This document shows positions 17,145-22,849 of a DNA stretch of 41,887 nt, in pieces. The notes beneath the pieces were generated by a model. That model worked only from the letters and a program-made list of their open reading frames with translations, was not told the DNA's origin and made no database searches. Within the stretch, counting starts at the first letter, position 1, and each line of letters opens with the position of its first letter. The DNA comes from Telmatospirillum sp. (lineage in GTDB: Bacteria > Pseudomonadota > Alphaproteobacteria > Rhodospirillales > Magnetospirillaceae), in the NCBI GenBank assembly GCA_009712185.1, contig WASQ01000026.1:1-41887 (forward strand), given 5' to 3'. The translations under genes were made by a program, and so were the position numbers.

Positions 17145-17756
17145 GTGGCAAAAATCGCTCTTATCGGCGCATCCGGCAATGCCGGTTCCCGCATTCTGAA
17201 GGAATTGTCTGATCGCGGACATCAGGTCACGGCGATCGCTCGCAATCCCGAAAAGATTGCGGCGCTGCCCCGGGTCGTCGCCGTCAGGGGCGATGCCAGC
17301 GACCGGAACGGGCTCGCGGCGCTGCTGACGGGACATGATGCCGTCATCAGTTCCATTCACTTTACCGCCAGCGATCCGGACGTGCTGATCGCGGCGGTCC
17401 GGACGGCCGGGGTTGGCCGCTATCTGGTCGTTGGCGGGGCGGGCAGTCTGGAGGTCGCGCCGGGACAACGACTGATCGATCAGCCCGACTTCCCCGAGGC
17501 TTATAAGGCCGAGGCGTCGAAAGGCGCCGCCTTCCTGGACCGTCTCAAGACAGTCGACGACCTGGACTGGACCTTCCTGTCCCCTTCGGCCATGTTCGTT
17601 CCAGGGGAACGGACGGGTCGTTTCCGCCTGGGCGGAGACCAGCTTCTGTCCTCCCCGGCCGGTTCCAGCATTTCCTTCGAGGACTATGCCGTCGCTCTTG
17701 TCGACGAAATCGAGAAGCCGGCCCATATCCGCCGCCGTTTTACCGTCGGATATTGA
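17145..17756 (+). CDS. NAD(P)-binding protein (NmrA/YwnB-like, NAD(P)H-binding family)
   Basis: This 203-residue Rossmann protein is of the NAD(P)H-binding/NmrA-like type. The start MAKIALIGASGNAGSR carries the GxxGxxG cofactor motif, and VVGGAGSLEV and FLSPSAMF are family landmarks. The GTG at 17145 is chosen because GGAG lies six bases upstream and because family members begin right at this strand; in-frame ATGs at 17115 and 17133 would add up to ten residues. Members often act as flavin or quinone reductases, or as redox-responsive proteins. It is divergent from an HxlR regulator with two operator-like palindromes between, so it is probably induced by an electrophile or oxidant. Confidence 0.85.
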   Translation: MAKIALIGASGNAGSRILKELSDRGHQVTAIARNPEKIAALPRVVAVRGDASDRNGLAALLTGHDAVISSIHFTASDPDVLIAAVRTAGVGRYLVVGGAGSLEVAPGQRLIDQPDFPEAYKAEASKGAAFLDRLKTVDDLDWTFLSPSAMFVPGERTGRFRLGGDQLLSSPAGSSISFEDYAVALVDEIEKPAHIRRRFTVGY

Positions 17757-17792
17757 CGGGCCCGGAACCCCGGGCCGCCGGAGCCCTGGCCG

Positions 17793-17832
17793 CCGGAGCA
17801 ACGCGCGTCAGATGTGACGGTCGTTGCTCCGG
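17793..17832. terminator. Bidirectional hairpin between the Rossmann protein gene and the P-type ATPase operon
   Basis: CCGGAGCAACG (17793-17803) pairs perfectly over 11 bp with CGTTGCTCCGG (17822-17832). It sits between converging genes that end at 17756 and 17861, so it can serve both. There is no T run. A second GC-rich palindrome, around 17760-17780, precedes it. Confidence 0.6.
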
Positions 17833-17860
17833 ACGGTCGTGAGACAAGGACGCCTTCCTG

Positions 17861-19987
17861 TCATGTGGCGCGAACGCTTGCGCCGCGTTCCGTCCCGGAC
17901 AGGGGGCGGATCGCGTTCAGAAGGATGCCGATGGTGCTGCCGTTGTGAAGGATGGCGGTTGCGATCGGCGACAGCAGCCCGAAGGCAGCTCCCAGAAGGA
18001 TTCCGCTGTTGAGGCCGACGGTGAGGCGGTAGTTCGAGCGGATTCTGGCGGTGGTTTCGTTGGCGATCGCCTTGGCGTCAGCCACCCGGGCCACATCATC
18101 CTCCAGAAGGGCGATATCGGCGGTCAGCCGGGCGATATCGGCGCCTTTTTGCATGGCGATGCCGACATGGGCGCCGGCCAGGGCCGGCGCGTCATTGATC
18201 CCGTCGCCGATATAGGCGATGCGGGCCCCTTCGGCATTGAGGCCGGCGATGATCCGGGCCTTGTCCTCCGGCAGCAATTCCGCGTGACAGGCGTCCAGTC
18301 CCAGGCGTTCCGACAACTCCTCCGCCCGCTCGCGGTGATCGCCGGTCAGCATCAGGATCCGTTTGGCGCCAAGGTCCCGGAGGCGCCGGACCGTGCGCGC
18401 GCTGTTGTCGCGCAGGCCATCCTTCAGACCCAGGATTCCCAGCAATCGGCCGTCGAAACCGATATAGAGCAAGGTCTTGCCCTCGCGGTAAAGCCGGTCC
18501 ACGATCCTGCGGCGGCCGGAAACGGCGATGCCTTCGTCCTCTTCGACAAAGTGGCGGGACCCGACAACGATGCGCTTTCCGTCCACCACACTCGCCACGC
18601 CATGAGCGACGATGAACTCCACTTCCTGATGTTCGAAATGACGGCTTCCGGTGTTCTTGGCCGCGCTGACCACTGCCTGGGCGATCGGATGAAAATAATG
18701 TTCCTCGATCGACGCGGCGAGGCAGATCAGGTCATCGCGTGAGAAGGCGGAATCGAAGACAAACACGTCGGTGACGTCGAGACATCCGGTGGTCAGAGTT
18801 CCCGTCTTATCGAAAACAAAGGTATCGGCTTCCGCCAGCCGTTCCAGCGCATTGGCGCTTTTGACCAGAAGGCCGGAATGAGCCGCGCCAAACATCGCGG
18901 ACTTGAACGTCACCGGGGTGGCCAGTTTCAGGGCGCAGGAGTAATCGCCTTGCAGGACCGAGGCGGCACGCCCCCACTGACCGGACAGCAGCCATGTCAG
19001 GCCGGCCAGCGTCAGCACCGTCGGGACCAGACGGTCGGCGAGACGCGTGGCTTCAAGCTGGGTGTCGCTTTTGCTCTGCAAGGCCTGTTCGACATAATCG
19101 GCGATACGGGCGGCGGCCGTCTGATTACCGACGTGCTCGGCATAGAGAACCAGTCGCCCGTCCTCCACCGTCGTGCCGGACAGGACCGCGGCGCCCCGGC
19201 TTTTGGCGACGGAAACGCTTTCCCCGGTCATGGTGGCCTCGTTGACCGTGGCCTCGCCGTCGAGAACCGTGCCATCGACGGGAATGACGGCGCCGGCCCC
19301 GACCACCACCATGTCGCCGGTCGCCACCGAGGCGGCCGGACAGAGGATTTCCTGCCCGTCGCGCAAGACCCAGACATCGTCGCTGGTGGGGCGTAACAGC
19401 GTTTTCAGCAGATCGTCCGACCGCCTGGCGATCGAGTCCTCGAGATACTCTCCCAGCGCCAGCATCAGGGTGGTGGTGTTGGCGGTGAGATGATCGCCCC
19501 GGCCCAGCGAGATGGCGACCGCCAATGCCTCCAGGACGTGGGAATTAATTCCGTCCGTCCGGTAATCCCGGATGGCTTGGCGGAACAACGGGATGGCGGT
19601 CGCCGCGGTCAGCGGGAATCGCGTGGCCGGCGGCAGGAGGCTGTTGGCCGCTAAGGACGCCAGGGGGATGCCGACCGTCCGGATACCGGAGGGATGGACC
19701 GGGCGGCCGGGCGCCCCACGATCCGACGCCCCACGATCCGGCGCCCCGAGGTCCGCGATCTGCCGGCACAGTCCGGCGGCGTCCGTGATCGCGGCATCGA
19801 ATTGCAAAACCAGGGACCGCGCGGTCCCATTGACGCGGGCACCGGCAACACCGCCAAGAAGGGCGCTGCGTTGTTCGAGGGCCCGGGGATCGAACGTGGC
19901 GGCCCGGGGCGGCCGATAGCGCAATCGCACCCGCCCCGGGCATTGGTGAACGATCCGGACGTCGGCAAGCCAGGGCGTTCCGGTCAT
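17861..19987 (-). CDS. fezB: P1B-type ATPase with YSC motif, candidate ferrosome ATPase FezB
   Basis: This is a 708-residue metal-transporting P-type ATPase. Catalytic elements are TGES near 256, the phosphorylation motif DKTGT near 391, the P1B His-Pro pair in HYFHPIAQ near 431 and GDGINDAPAL near 593. The metal-site helix reads DYSCALKLATP near 348, so Tyr-Ser-Cys replaces the usual Cys-Pro-Cys. The N-terminus has no CxxC metal domain but carries HQCPGRVRLRY (residues 15-25), a motif shared with two small proteins of the operon. A short Ala/Asp/Arg-Gly repeat (residues 78-92) follows. The ATG overlaps the upstream stop. An unusual P1B ATPase with small membrane proteins and a Fur-box promoter matches ferrosome (fez) clusters as I know them; iron as the cargo is inferred. 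Confidence 0.82.
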   Translation of the reverse strand: MTGTPWLADVRIVHQCPGRVRLRYRPPRAATFDPRALEQRSALLGGVAGARVNGTARSLVLQFDAAITDAAGLCRQIADLGAPDRGASDRGAPGRPVHPSGIRTVGIPLASLAANSLLPPATRFPLTAATAIPLFRQAIRDYRTDGINSHVLEALAVAISLGRGDHLTANTTTLMLALGEYLEDSIARRSDDLLKTLLRPTSDDVWVLRDGQEILCPAASVATGDMVVVGAGAVIPVDGTVLDGEATVNEATMTGESVSVAKSRGAAVLSGTTVEDGRLVLYAEHVGNQTAAARIADYVEQALQSKSDTQLEATRLADRLVPTVLTLAGLTWLLSGQWGRAASVLQGDYSCALKLATPVTFKSAMFGAAHSGLLVKSANALERLAEADTFVFDKTGTLTTGCLDVTDVFVFDSAFSRDDLICLAASIEEHYFHPIAQAVVSAAKNTGSRHFEHQEVEFIVAHGVASVVDGKRIVVGSRHFVEEDEGIAVSGRRRIVDRLYREGKTLLYIGFDGRLLGILGLKDGLRDNSARTVRRLRDLGAKRILMLTGDHRERAEELSERLGLDACHAELLPEDKARIIAGLNAEGARIAYIGDGINDAPALAGAHVGIAMQKGADIARLTADIALLEDDVARVADAKAIANETTARIRSNYRLTVGLNSGILLGAAFGLLSPIATAILHNGSTIGILLNAIRPLSGTERGASVRAT
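19711..19755. repeat. 3 x 15-bp tandem repeat inside the ATPase gene
   Basis: Three consecutive 15-bp units (GCGCCCCACGATCCG, ACGCCCCACGATCCG, GCGCCCCGAGGTCCG) encode a repeated five-residue Gly-Ala-Pro/Ser-Asp-Arg unit. It lies in the linker between the N-terminal domain and the first membrane helices, where length variation by slippage would be tolerated. Confidence 0.8.
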
Positions 19988-20298
19988 GCCACGCCGCTTT
20001 GGCCCGCGTCCATTTCGGCCTTGATATCGGCCACCTGCTCCCGGAACTCGGCCAGTCCGCCCGCCAGCTCGGCATAGAGCGACATACCGGACCGCAGAAG
20101 CCTGCCACGGATGTTTTCATCGGCCAGCACATAGGCGGCGACCGCCCCGATCGCCGCGCCCAGCAGGAACTGGGCGGTTCCGCGCGCCGGCAGAAGGCGG
20201 GTGAGGCCGCCCAGCAATCCGCCGTTCTGCGCAGGCGCCGCCGTCAGGGCCGCCTCATTCGCTTTCCGTCTGTTTTTCTTATGCTTCTTCTTTGCCAT
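19984..20298 (-). CDS. Small glycine-zipper membrane protein of the fez-like operon
   Basis: This 104-residue protein is not assigned to a named family. The first 15 residues are strongly basic (KKKHKKNRRK), followed by a Gly/Ala-rich region and one hydrophobic segment (about 43-58, FLLGAAIGAVAAYVLA) with a small-xxx-small pattern. The rest is an amphipathic helix rich in Glu/Ala (AELAGGLAEFREQVADIKAEM). Such proteins can coat or curve membranes. The stop overlaps the ATPase start (ATGA), so the two are probably co-translated. It is part of the six-gene operon 21982-17861, and its role in an iron organelle is inference from context. Confidence 0.8.
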   Translation of the reverse strand: MAKKKHKKNRRKANEAALTAAPAQNGGLLGGLTRLLPARGTAQFLLGAAIGAVAAYVLADENIRGRLLRSGMSLYAELAGGLAEFREQVADIKAEMDAGQSGVA

Positions 20299-20367
20299 CT
20301 GATCTCTCCTGATGTCCGGTGCCGATGGTGTGGCCTGAACCTGTCCGGTCGTCCCGGGAACCTGTTG

Positions 20368-20661
20368 TCACGTCCTTTCCGCCGGCGGGTCGGCCAGCAG
20401 CCGTTCCGCCATCCGGATGCCGGCCGCTCCGGCCGCCACTCCGACAAGAGCGGCGCCATAGTCGCGGTGGCGGATGGCTCTCGCCGCCACCGTCGCGACG
20501 GAAAGCGCCGCTCCGCCGGTCACTGCCTGACGCAAGACGGACCGTGCCGTCGCCCTGTCCGGCCCGGCGAAGGCGCACAGCAGCCCGGTGGCGAGAAAAC
20601 CGCGCAGAAAGGCGCTGGCGGCGCTGTTTTCGTCATCGATCCGTGTTTTGCGTTTCTTCAT
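20368..20661 (-). CDS. Small hydrophobic protein of the fez-like operon
   Basis: This 97-residue protein is of unknown function. A basic, polar start (KKRKTRIDDENS) is followed by three hydrophobic, Ala/Gly-rich stretches near residues 18-32, 47-60 and 69-84, the last with GVAAGAAG. It may insert into or line a membrane. Its start overlaps the stop of the preceding gene (ATGA at 20658-20661) and a 69-bp gap separates it from the next. The name-free assignment rests on operon position only. Confidence 0.75.
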   Translation of the reverse strand: MKKRKTRIDDENSAASAFLRGFLATGLLCAFAGPDRATARSVLRQAVTGGAALSVATVAARAIRHRDYGAALVGVAAGAAGIRMAERLLADPPAERT

Positions 20662-21065
20662 GACGGTTCCCCGTCGTGCGGAACCGAACCGGCGGCGGGA
20701 GCCGCCCGGCGCCGTTTGCGGGGCTTTTCGGCTGTCGTCCGCGGGGCATCCGGCGGGGGCGCAGCCCGGCGGCGCGGGGGGGCCGGATCCTCATGCGCGG
20801 AGGCCGGATCCAGTCTAGTGGGATCCGCGGCCGTCGCGTCCGATTCCCCGGGGCCGGCGGTGCGGGCGTCAGGGGAAAGCCGGCCGCGCAACGCGGCAGA
20901 TGACCGTTCCAATGTCTCCAGCCCCGACACGGTGGCGCGGCGTAAGCCGCCCTCGGCCGTTTCCAGGCCCCGTCGTGCGGTTTCAGGGAGTTTGGCGTTT
21001 TTTATCGTCCGGACGCCGGCAATTCCGGCAAACAGCCCCCCGGCGAAAATCAAGAGAGGATGCAT
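20658..21065 (-). CDS. Small N-terminally anchored, Ala/Pro/Arg-rich protein of the fez-like operon
   Basis: This 135-residue protein has an N-terminal hydrophobic segment (residues 4-17, LLIFAGGLFAGIAG), a helical middle (residues 25-65) and a low-complexity C-terminal half rich in Pro, Ala, Asp and Arg that ends with a basic block (EKPRKRRRAAPAAG). The tail should be disordered and could bind nucleic acid, phosphate or mineral, but this is speculation. No named family is recognised. It lies 47 bp after the gene ending at 21113 and overlaps the next gene by four bases. Confidence 0.75.
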   Translation of the reverse strand: MHPLLIFAGGLFAGIAGVRTIKNAKLPETARRGLETAEGGLRRATVSGLETLERSSAALRGRLSPDARTAGPGESDATAADPTRLDPASAHEDPAPPRRRAAPPPDAPRTTAEKPRKRRRAAPAAGSVPHDGEPS

Positions 21066-21112
21066 GTCTTTTCCCCTTCCTATCCAATTGATGACCGCAT
21101 CTGTCCTGTGGC

Positions 21113-21490
21113 TCAGTCCGTCGCCAGGGGGCGGGCCCCCCGGAATGCGTCCTCGAGACTGCGCAAAAGCCGGTCGGCGGCCTCCCCTCCGGTTCCGCAG
21201 AGAAGATCCTGCCAGGCCGACGGCGGAATAACCCCGGCGTCGTATTCAATGACGCAGGACAGGGCGAGCGGATTGAGCGTCACGGACCGGATCGCCGATC
21301 CGCCGTTTTTCTCCAGAATCCTCACAAAATGCCGGGCCGTATCGGCAAGGTTCCGAATCTGGCGGGTTCCGGACATCCCGATCCTGAACCGGATGCGGCC
21401 CGGAATATGGTGCGCGATGGCAATCGACTCCGAAAGCTGCGCCACAGCGTCCCGCAGTTCGATCATGGCGTCGTTCATGGGTCGCTTCAT
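21113..21490 (-). CDS. HMA2-like small protein with HxxPGRxRFR motif
   Basis: This 125-residue soluble-looking protein contains AHHIPGRIRFRIG near residues 26-38, the same His-x-x-Pro-Gly-Arg-x-Arg pattern found at the N-terminus of the ATPase and in the next protein upstream. The fold resembles the HMA_2 domain family: a strand-helix-strand unit (SVTLNPLALSCVIEYDAG) without the CxxC of ordinary metal chaperones. It may dock on the ATPase or on the organelle membrane. It is separated by three bases from the upstream gene, so it is translated from the same mRNA. The ATG at 21490 could be replaced by the internal Met5. Confidence 0.8.
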   Translation of the reverse strand: MKRPMNDAMIELRDAVAQLSESIAIAHHIPGRIRFRIGMSGTRQIRNLADTARHFVRILEKNGGSAIRSVTLNPLALSCVIEYDAGVIPPSAWQDLLCGTGGEAADRLLRSLEDAFRGARPLATD

Positions 21491-21493
21491 CCC

Positions 21494-21982
21494 CTACCGA
21501 AACAGCGTCCGGCGATAGGTCGCCATGTGACACAACGCCAGAACAACAAAGGATCCTCCGGCCAGGGCATGCAAACGCTTCGATCCGGCCAACCCCGCGA
21601 GAGACAGGGCGAGGCCGGTCATCATTCCGATCTTGACCGGCCGGTTCATGTCGCCAAGGCGCCATGACCGTCGCCCCTTACCCGTACCCGTGCCGGTCCC
21701 CGGATCCGGCGGAGGGGGCGTGGCAGGAGCGGCGGGATCCAGGGCTCCGGCCAGGGTGATAATCATGTCTTCGGTCCCGGCGGCCGATTCCGACCGGGCG
21801 TCATAATGAACCAGGATGCTTCCCGCATCGGGGGCCTCCCGGACGGCCGTCACGCCCGGCAGGGATGCCAGGGATGACGCCAGATCCCGCAACCGCTTCG
21901 GCACGCGCAGATCGCGATGCCGGATCCTGATCCGGCCGGGCAGACGGGAGGCAATGGCGGGGGGTGTCTTTATCTGAGGCAA
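21494..21982 (-). CDS. HMA2-like protein with C-terminal membrane segments, first gene of the fez-like operon
   Basis: This 162-residue protein has ASRLPGRIRIRHRDLR near residues 11-26 at the N-terminus, a version of the Pro-Gly-Arg-x-Arg motif with Arg in place of the His. A betaalphabeta region resembling HMA_2 follows (GVTAVREAPDAGSILVHYD), then a Pro/Gly/Thr linker (residues 80-105) and two hydrophobic segments near 117-131 and 139-152. This layout, a small metal-domain-like head with a membrane tail, suits an organelle membrane protein. It is the first gene after the Fur-box promoter at 22213-22265, with a leader of about 230 nt. Function is inferred from context. Confidence 0.8.
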   Translation of the reverse strand: MPQIKTPPAIASRLPGRIRIRHRDLRVPKRLRDLASSLASLPGVTAVREAPDAGSILVHYDARSESAAGTEDMIITLAGALDPAAPATPPPPDPGTGTGTGKGRRSWRLGDMNRPVKIGMMTGLALSLAGLAGSKRLHALAGGSFVVLALCHMATYRRTLFR

Positions 21983-22212
21983 ATCCGGCCTCTCCTGTAG
22001 GCGATGTCGATGTTGTCAACGGATCGCGGCGGAAAACAGCGCCTTGCCGCAAATGACCCTAGAATGATTACGATTTTACGACAAGCGATTGTTCACAATG
22101 CGGGACGCGCGAGGACGGGATGGGATGTGGCGGGATCCGGCTTGGTTTCTCCTTGCCGTCCGGAAGGCCTGTCGTCGCGGGGGAGGGATGGGGCATGACG
22201 CTGGATTTTTAT
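21983..22212 (-). other. Long leader of the fez-like operon
   Basis: About 230 nt separate the predicted start of transcription from the first gene at 21982. I see no recognised riboswitch or small RNA, and open frames here lack ribosome sites. An AT-rich block at 22059-22083 interrupts otherwise GC-rich DNA. Confidence 0.4.
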
Positions 22213-22265
22213 GATAATGATAATGAATTGCTTTTTTATTACAGCATGCAACGACGGATTGTCAA
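22213..22265 (-). promoter_or_regulatory. Promoter with Fur-box-like operator for the fez-like operon
   Basis: On the minus strand TTGACA (22265-22260) is a perfect -35, followed after 16 bp by TGTAAT (22243-22238), a 5/6 match to -10. Just beyond it, at the expected start of transcription, the plus strand reads GATAATGATAAT (22213-22224) then GAATTG, which is two perfect hexamers of the GATAAT-type Fur box plus a weaker third. Such a position would block transcription when Fur is iron-loaded. No gene lies between this site and the operon start at 21982. Confidence 0.72.
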
Positions 22266-22353
22266 TTCCTCCAACAGGGTTATCAGGCGATGGTCTGTCG
22301 CCGGCGACATGGCGCGCTATCACAGGACCGGACCGTCGCGCTGATCGAATTTA

Positions 22354-22382
22354 TTACCAAATATTCCCTAAAGATCTATAAT
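22354..22382 (+). promoter_or_regulatory. Promoter candidate for the HTH/DUF4180 genes
   Basis: TATAAT (22377-22382) is a perfect -10 hexamer, with TTACCA (22354-22359, 4/6 to TTGACA) 17 bp upstream. It points to the gene starting at 22433, leaving a leader of about 45 nt. It is separate from the divergent Fur-box promoter. Confidence 0.55.
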
Positions 22383-22432
22383 GAAGGCGCATTAAGGAAT
22401 TTTGCGGTATTTCATCTGTTGCGGAGGAACCG

Positions 22433-22849
22433 GTGTCCACCGATCTTTTAACAGTCGATCAGGCGGCCCGACGGCTTAGCCTTCATCCCAAAACCGTCCT
22501 GCGCTTCATTCATGACGGGCGGTTGTCGGCTTCGCGAATCGGACGGTCTTATCGGATTCAGGAAAGCCACCTCGCGGGACTGGTCGGGATCGAGGAGGCG
22601 GGGGCCGCGGTGGAGGCGCGCGCGACCAGCATTGTCGAGCTGGCCCAGGTGACGCCGGAGAACGCTGCGGGCCTTTCCAGTCTGTTACAGGCATCCCTGG
22701 CGACGGCCACAGCCCGGCCGGACCCGGTTCATCTGGATACCGCCTATGACCCGGCCCGGCGAACCCTGAAAATCGTCGTGATCGCGGCACCGGCCGATGC
22801 GGCGTCTCTGCTTCAGGCGCTGGCCGCCTTTCTGGAGGCCCATCCATGA
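22433..22849 (+). CDS. Helix-turn-helix (excisionase/MerR-type) DNA-binding protein
   Basis: This 138-residue protein has an N-terminal HTH_17-type domain (residues 5-50): LTVDQAARRLSLHPKTVLRFIHDG, then the wing ASRIGRSYRIQESHLAGL. The C-terminal part, residues 60-138, is Ala-rich and predicted to be alpha/beta; I do not recognise it. GTG at 22433 has GGAGG five bases upstream. It overlaps the DUF4180 gene by four bases (ATGA), so the two are one unit. No integrase or phage gene is nearby, which argues for a chromosomal regulator rather than an excisionase. It is divergent from the iron-responsive operon. Confidence 0.82.
   Translation: MSTDLLTVDQAARRLSLHPKTVLRFIHDGRLSASRIGRSYRIQESHLAGLVGIEEAGAAVEARATSIVELAQVTPENAAGLSSLLQASLATATARPDPVHLDTAYDPARRTLKIVVIAAPADAASLLQALAAFLEAHP

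Follow-up and report, generated by a model that had tools for sequence, protein, structure and literature searches.

The window analysed here, 41,887 nucleotides of Telmatospirillum sp. DNA (contig WASQ01000026.1 of assembly GCA_009712185.1), very probably carries a complete ferrosome (fez) operon of six genes, putatively under Fur control, whose products are predicted to build a vesicle, drive Fe(II) into it through the ATPase FezB, carry out redox chemistry through FezC and store iron. The genes are numbered 1 to 6 from the promoter-proximal end (Table 1); gene 6 encodes the ATPase and genes 1 to 5 encode small proteins. Judged by sequence, their membership in fez operons is near certain, and each sequence hallmark that we looked for was present except a clear FezA. 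Vesicle formation, an Fe(II) cargo, control by Fur and haem in FezC are predictions drawn from the sequence.

The operon ATPase falls in the FezB clade

The gene 6 product matched the heavy-metal P1B model TIGR01525 (E 4e-144) and carries the ATPase motifs TGES, DKTGTLT, HP and GDGINDAP. Residues 347-355 read GDYSCALKL, which bears out the original prediction of a P1B-type ATPase with Tyr-Ser-Cys in its metal site. Transmembrane segment 6 (TM6) contains His681-Asn682, and a passage of PMC9374683 lists HN in TM6 among the features of P1B6 ATPases. VLQ(A/G)DYSCALKLATPV is common to close relatives; at that place most of the other P1B ATPases in the comparison read CPC, CPG, CPH or SPC. Asp348, Cys351, Lys354, His681 and Asn682 were invariant in 12 aligned rows and are candidate metal-site residues; Tyr349 was nearly invariant, and Ser350 was replaced by Ala in some rows.

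A tree of 62 rows split 40 FezB-type rows from 22 other P1B rows with full support (Shimodaira-Hasegawa-like approximate likelihood ratio test, SH-aLRT, 100). The FezB-type ATPase of Desulfovibrio magneticus RS-1 lies inside the FezB clade, where the window ATPase groups with those of Azospirillum brasilense, of genomes from its own family and of four Afipia-family genomes. As the original prediction implied, the ATPase falls with the RS-1 protein and apart from the CPC, CPG and SPC rows. The non-FezB rows comprised 19 of 70 non-Fez loci from a motif scan and three paralogs from the host's own genome (L002-L004). That scan, run over contigs with two motifs common to P-type ATPases, found at least 80 loci, ten of them FezB-type (L192-L198, L201, L223 and L262); Rhodopseudomonas palustris and Shewanella are absent among the scan loci listed, and Shewanella putrefaciens lay outside the scan's reach. 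The tree omits L027 (in-frame stop), L331, L293-L298 (six of 15 Afipia-family matches) and those Desulfovibrionaceae matches that were not fetched. An initial tree held 25 FezB-type rows and 26 others, with four rows flagged as long.

We took genome G998 to be Desulfovibrio (Solidesulfovibrio) magneticus RS-1 because the first 3000 bases of its contig C3 were identical (3000/3000) to plasmid pDMC1; the genome contains a single FezB-like match at E<=1e-120. We assigned the names FezA, FezB and FezC to the three RS-1 genes (L328) from that one locus and from citing papers. The original RS-1 ferrosome paper reportedly describes a three-gene operon.

Gene 1 is FezC by sequence

Gene 1 matched RS-1 FezC at 36% over 153 amino acids (aa) in a two-sequence comparison (E 1.5e-21). 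A profile of seven gene 1 rows matched an RS-1-type FezC profile of two rows at 99.5% over the whole length (reversed control, 0.2%). RS-1 FezC, a 146 aa protein encoded after FezB, matched HMA_2 (4e-10) and, weakly, DUF4405 across its last helix (0.2). DUF4405 was also matched at that place, below cut-off (0.046-0.21), in four of the five full-length gene 1 relatives scanned, L019 giving none; it was not found in the window gene 1 protein, scanned whole or as a C-terminal piece. His138 and His152, 14 residues apart in one membrane helix, did not vary in any of 12 aligned rows.

Recombinant FezC of Desulfurispirillum indicum is reported to show haem b spectra, and a DUF4405-like haem site in a FezC homodimer is presented there as a model (PMC10979944). 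On these sequence comparisons gene 1 is FezC. We infer, on good grounds, that it binds haem, given its likeness to RS-1 FezC, the invariant histidine pair, the DUF4405-like relatives and the account in PMC10979944. The view that gene 1 represents a new type of fusion, an HMA_2 domain joined to a FezC-type cytochrome, was dropped, since RS-1 FezC has the same two parts.

Operon structure and the remaining small proteins

The six open reading frames (ORFs) lie on the minus strand between 21982 and 17861, with 4-base overlaps at two junctions and no gap larger than 69 bases, confirming the tight packing described at the outset. The span first assigned to the operon, 17861..22265, does hold it, and also takes in some 230 bases of leader between the Fur-like site and gene 1. 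An (H)xxPGRxRxR motif had been said to be shared by the ATPase and two small proteins; searched as [PS]GR[IVLM]RxR among the 251 window ORFs with 60 aa or more, it occurred in three, the ATPase, gene 1 and gene 2. The HMA_2 domains that carry it lack CxxC.

Table 1. Features of the putative fez operon and its upstream region
Feature	Position	Strand	Description
Gene 1, fezC	21494-21982	-	162 aa, TTG start; HMA_2 domain (PGRIRIR) and C-terminal membrane helix with His138 and His152
Gene 2	21113-21490	-	125 aa; HMA_2-like, HHIPGRIRFR, without CxxC and without a membrane-like segment
Gene 3	20658-21065	-	135 aa; FezA-like membrane segment FAGGLFAGIAGVR, then basic tail
Gene 4	20368-20661	-	97 aa; membrane protein rich in glycine and alanine
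Gene 5	19984-20298	-	104 aa; Lys-rich N-terminus, single glycine-rich membrane segment, YtxH/DUF5132-like (below Pfam cut-off)
Gene 6, fezB-type P1B-6 ATPase	17861-19987	-	708 aa; TM4 DYSC, TM6 HN, N-terminal HMA_2-like domain with PGRVRLR
Fur-box-like palindrome	22212-22226	.	over or just 3' of the likely transcription start
Promoter-like TTGACA (22265-22260) and TGTAAT (22243-22238)	22238-22265	-	read by eye

The small proteins had been called mostly membrane-associated or HMA2-like. A simple hydropathy count gave one membrane-like segment each in genes 1, 3, 4 and 5; gene 2 has none. Searches of Pfam and NCBIfam matched HMA_2 below cut-off in genes 1 and 2 and YtxH/DUF5132 weakly in gene 5, and found no match for genes 3 and 4.

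Profile comparisons with other FezB clusters (reversed controls at or below 6.1%) placed most of these proteins. Gene 2 matched HMA_2 proteins at 97-99.4%, and a divergently placed gammaproteobacterial HMA gene at 2.0%; gene 5 matched YtxH-like proteins at 96-99%. Gene 4 matched an Arcobacter fez-cluster protein at 89.8% and a gammaproteobacterial protein of 101 aa at 84.5% after pooling only (1.3% directly). Gene 3 matched clostridial DUF6110 at 68%, an Arcobacter protein of 91 aa at 47% and a gammaproteobacterial YtxH-like protein at 42%, its likeness to FezA/DUF6110 being short (16-43 residues around FAGGLFAGIAGVR). The three proteins left unplaced in the original prediction can thus be described as weakly FezA-like (gene 3), conserved within the six-gene set (gene 4) and YtxH-like (gene 5).

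The six-gene set in other genomes

We surveyed 29 FezB loci by tblastn (E<=1e-4) with the six proteins in their window, L013 and L018 versions; the survey excludes the ten FezB loci of the motif scan, and L013 and L018 match themselves. All six genes occurred in the same order in nine loci: L013 (A. brasilense plasmid p3), L017-L020 (the window's family) and L299-L302 (Afipia family). Outside these nine, genes 3 and 4 gave no direct match other than two scraps for gene 3 (E 4e-5 and 5e-5), and gene 5 was matched in 24 of the 29. Gene 2 of L020 had seemed to lack a usual start codon; this was wrong, as TTG codons lie in frame.

Four Afipia-family genomes (G733, G778, G807 and G831) encode FezB proteins 66-68% identical to that of the window, carry Photo_RC genes and have the whole set in the same order. 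From their family, these genes and the irr gene beside the operon in three of the four, they are presumably Rhodopseudomonas. The irr genes (IrrA model) are divergent from the operon at L299:7701-8423, L300:7812-8342 and L301:7750-8280, and Irr may control it there; none was seen in the shorter stretch L302. The window differs in that it has a Fur-like site, and none of its scanned neighbours is an iron gene. R. palustris itself is reported to have a six-gene fez set, RPA2333-2338, from which strain CGA009 makes ferrosomes, and an anaerobic role is proposed for them (PMC12016538); the same six genes are reported to go down at low light, as are iron genes (PMC6879726).

With the set published for R. 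palustris (PMC12016538), and with the identical order in nine of 29 FezB loci, among them genomes most likely of Rhodopseudomonas, we dropped the suggestion that the gene content may be a new variant. The ferrosome reading made alongside it is supported by the FezB clade, the FezC homology and the gene set. A known system in a new host, not a new kind of system, is a sound prediction from these sequences.

The RS-1 ATPase shares the FezB clade with that of the window (35% identity), and the FezC proteins resemble each other from end to end, both histidines included; RS-1 has three genes in the order A-B-C, whereas in the window C comes first and B last, with further small genes besides. Clostridial pairs of DUF6110 and P1B-6 genes (L192-L194, L196, L197 and L223) share the ATPase clade, and their DUF6110 segment FAGGVLFGTAG distantly resembles the gene 3 membrane segment; unlike the window they consist of two genes with no FezC seen beside them (DUF6110 was clear in the three scanned).

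FezB is uncommon in the genomes sampled around the host. Searches with the window protein, with its own genome included in the relatives, class and phylum counts, found it in 5 of 41 relatives (E<=1e-120), and at E<=1e-110 in 2 of 289 genomes of the class and 7 of 299 of the phylum. With that query, FezB-like proteins were matched in 15 of 248 Afipia-family genomes at E<=1e-105, with the motif unchecked in the weakest. With a Mailhella query, Desulfovibrionaceae (the family of G605, Mailhella) gave FezB-like matches in 119 of 199 genomes (E<=1e-120; motif checked in fetched loci only), so ferrosome genes look common in that family. One locus of the Mailhella family has tandem FezB-like ATPase genes with a FeoA-domain protein between them (L330:4251-9229).

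Iron genes lie near fez in several relatives, here given as examples from single loci: FeoA (L015, L330, L334), FeoB with FeoC (L032), FeoC (L020), rubrerythrin (L018) and an iron ABC transporter (L013). Inside the fez cluster of the Arcobacter sp. DSM 115972 plasmid, L014:4339-5022 encodes a protein with a rubrerythrin/DUF2202-like (ferritin-like) domain, below the Pfam cut-off, that ends in a glycine-rich, membrane-like tail; it is possibly an iron oxidase tied to the ferrosome membrane.

A Fur-like site precedes the operon

The Fur-box-like site predicted in front of the operon is present: 22212-22226 matches 12 of the 14 positions of TGATAATNATTATCA, and when the 401 upstream bases were Markov-shuffled 1000 times, an equally good site arose once. 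It is one of 11 sites at two or fewer mismatches in the 6.1 Mb genome; the reversed pattern gave one. Three of the ten others precede iron genes, so the genomic motif picks out such genes, though not exclusively: feoA begins 43 bases past one site, with feoB next; a sigma-70-family factor (extracytoplasmic function, or ECF, like) lies 71 bases past another; and the ORF of a TonB-dependent receptor starts 70 bases past a third. Upstream of 18 fez loci, the same consensus was matched as well by at most 10 of 1000 shuffles in three cases, namely the window (12/14), Arcobacter L014 (13/14) and L017 (11/14); the figure for L018 was 30 of 1000. In Clostridioides difficile the fez genes are reported to be Fur-repressed (PMC12574912). 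The window operon is probably switched on by iron shortage.

The TTGACA/TGTAAT pair read by eye has a 16-base spacer and would place the Fur-like site at about +5 to +19. A consensus promoter scan of 17500-22600 did not list this pair; it returned two promoter-like sites, both on the plus strand, with 1.0 expected. The leader from the likely transcription start to gene 1 (21983-22230) is about 230-250 bases long, whereas in L017 just 57 bases separate the beginning of the Fur-like site from gene 1. The two Rfam matches obtained in 17700-22500 failed to reach the gathering score. A divergent excisionase-type HTH_17 gene (22433-22849) starts about 200 bases from the Fur-like site.

Contrary evidence and alternative explanations

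Several observations weigh against a Fur-controlled fez operon. None of the six proteins matched FezA (DUF6110) in Pfam. Gene 3 reached only 70% over 43 residues against a pooled FezA profile, and gene 5 rivals it for the role, at 82.8% against the RS-1/L333 pair, 28.1% pooled and 0.6% against the clostridial profile. AlphaFold, run on gene 1 alone, gave a poor model (mean predicted local distance difference test score, pLDDT, 50.9), from which we drew nothing beyond an opening strand-helix-strand-strand arrangement and a helix at 138-160. Of the ten other Fur-like sites in the genome, seven have no obvious iron-uptake genes adjacent (one is flanked by an iron-containing alcohol dehydrogenase and a SnoaL protein, and a chemotaxis receptor follows another), and the four window neighbours scanned are not iron genes. 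Finally, the fez upstream regions of L013, L019, L020 and six clostridial loci matched the Fur consensus at near-chance levels; other iron regulators could possibly control fez in some loci, as Irr might in L299-L301. Gene 3, or else gene 5, is weakly FezA-like and a candidate for the FezA equivalent.

We weighed three other explanations. The operon might encode a metal-efflux platform, in which the ATPase exports Fe(II) or another metal from the cell at clusters that the small membrane proteins hold together, with no organelle, as CtpC and PacL1 do for zinc in mycobacteria. That platform likewise pairs a P1B ATPase with a small scaffold-like membrane protein, and has a CPC site, a DUF1490 protein with a C-terminal metal motif, zinc as its metal and no organelle; the same source relates the DUF6110 proteins that accompany P1B6 ATPases to the DUF1490 (PacL) proteins (PMC9374683). 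Our initial tree placed CPC ATPases of one member of the Mycobacteriaceae and of a gammaproteobacterium closest among the non-Fez rows (SH-aLRT 97). However, Pfam found no DUF1490 match in the six proteins, TM4 reads YSC rather than CPC, and the gene content, FezC included, is that of fez operons. A Fur-box would also mean expression under iron shortage, the wrong sense for iron detoxification. We consider efflux unlikely.

Less probable still, the operon could be kept without forming ferrosomes in this host, with FezB and FezC serving, for example, iron redox at the cell membrane. The lack of a Pfam DUF6110 FezA is consistent with this; against it, the same set occurs in nine loci, and R. palustris CGA009 is reported to make ferrosomes from its six genes (PMC12016538). 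A copper, zinc or cobalt P1B ATPase (P1B-1, -2 or -4) with metallochaperone-like HMA proteins can be practically dismissed, because despite the generic TIGR01525 match and a TIGR01512 (cadmium) score above cut-off, TM4 reads DYSC rather than CPC, CPG, CPH or SPC, the ATPase sits in the FezB clade, and the PGRxRxR HMA_2 domains lack CxxC.

A model for the operon and its implications

A ferrosome operon ordered fezC, HMA_2 gene, fezA-like gene, gene 4, YtxH-like gene 5 and fezB could work as follows. When iron runs short, Fur would leave 22212-22226 and the operon would be expressed. The small glycine-rich membrane proteins of genes 3, 4 and 5 may gather FezB into curved or pinched-off membrane, where this P1B-6 ATPase would drive Fe(II) into the vesicle. 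FezC, binding haem as a homodimer through its two helix histidines, would pass electrons across the vesicle membrane, so that iron is oxidised on storage and reduced on release. As a guess, the Arg-rich HMA_2 motif shared by FezB, FezC and gene 2 binds phosphate or docks the three together.

A more doubtful extension is that this is a distinct architecture, in which genes 3, 4 and 5 and the second Arg-rich HMA_2 protein (gene 2) replace a single DUF6110 FezA, and a phosphate-binding HMA_2 face on FezB, FezC and gene 2 links, within a phototroph, the import of iron, electron transfer by haem and the deposition of iron phosphate. If so, the release of iron could be tied through the FezC cytochrome to a redox state driven by light.

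The host carries photosynthetic reaction-centre genes, and such a phototroph fits the anaerobic role proposed for ferrosomes (PMC12016538). With gene 1 as FezC and genes 3 and 5 as FezA candidates, the operon offers deletion targets that could separate membrane-bending from redox proteins, and it adds another phototroph to the likely makers of ferrosomes.

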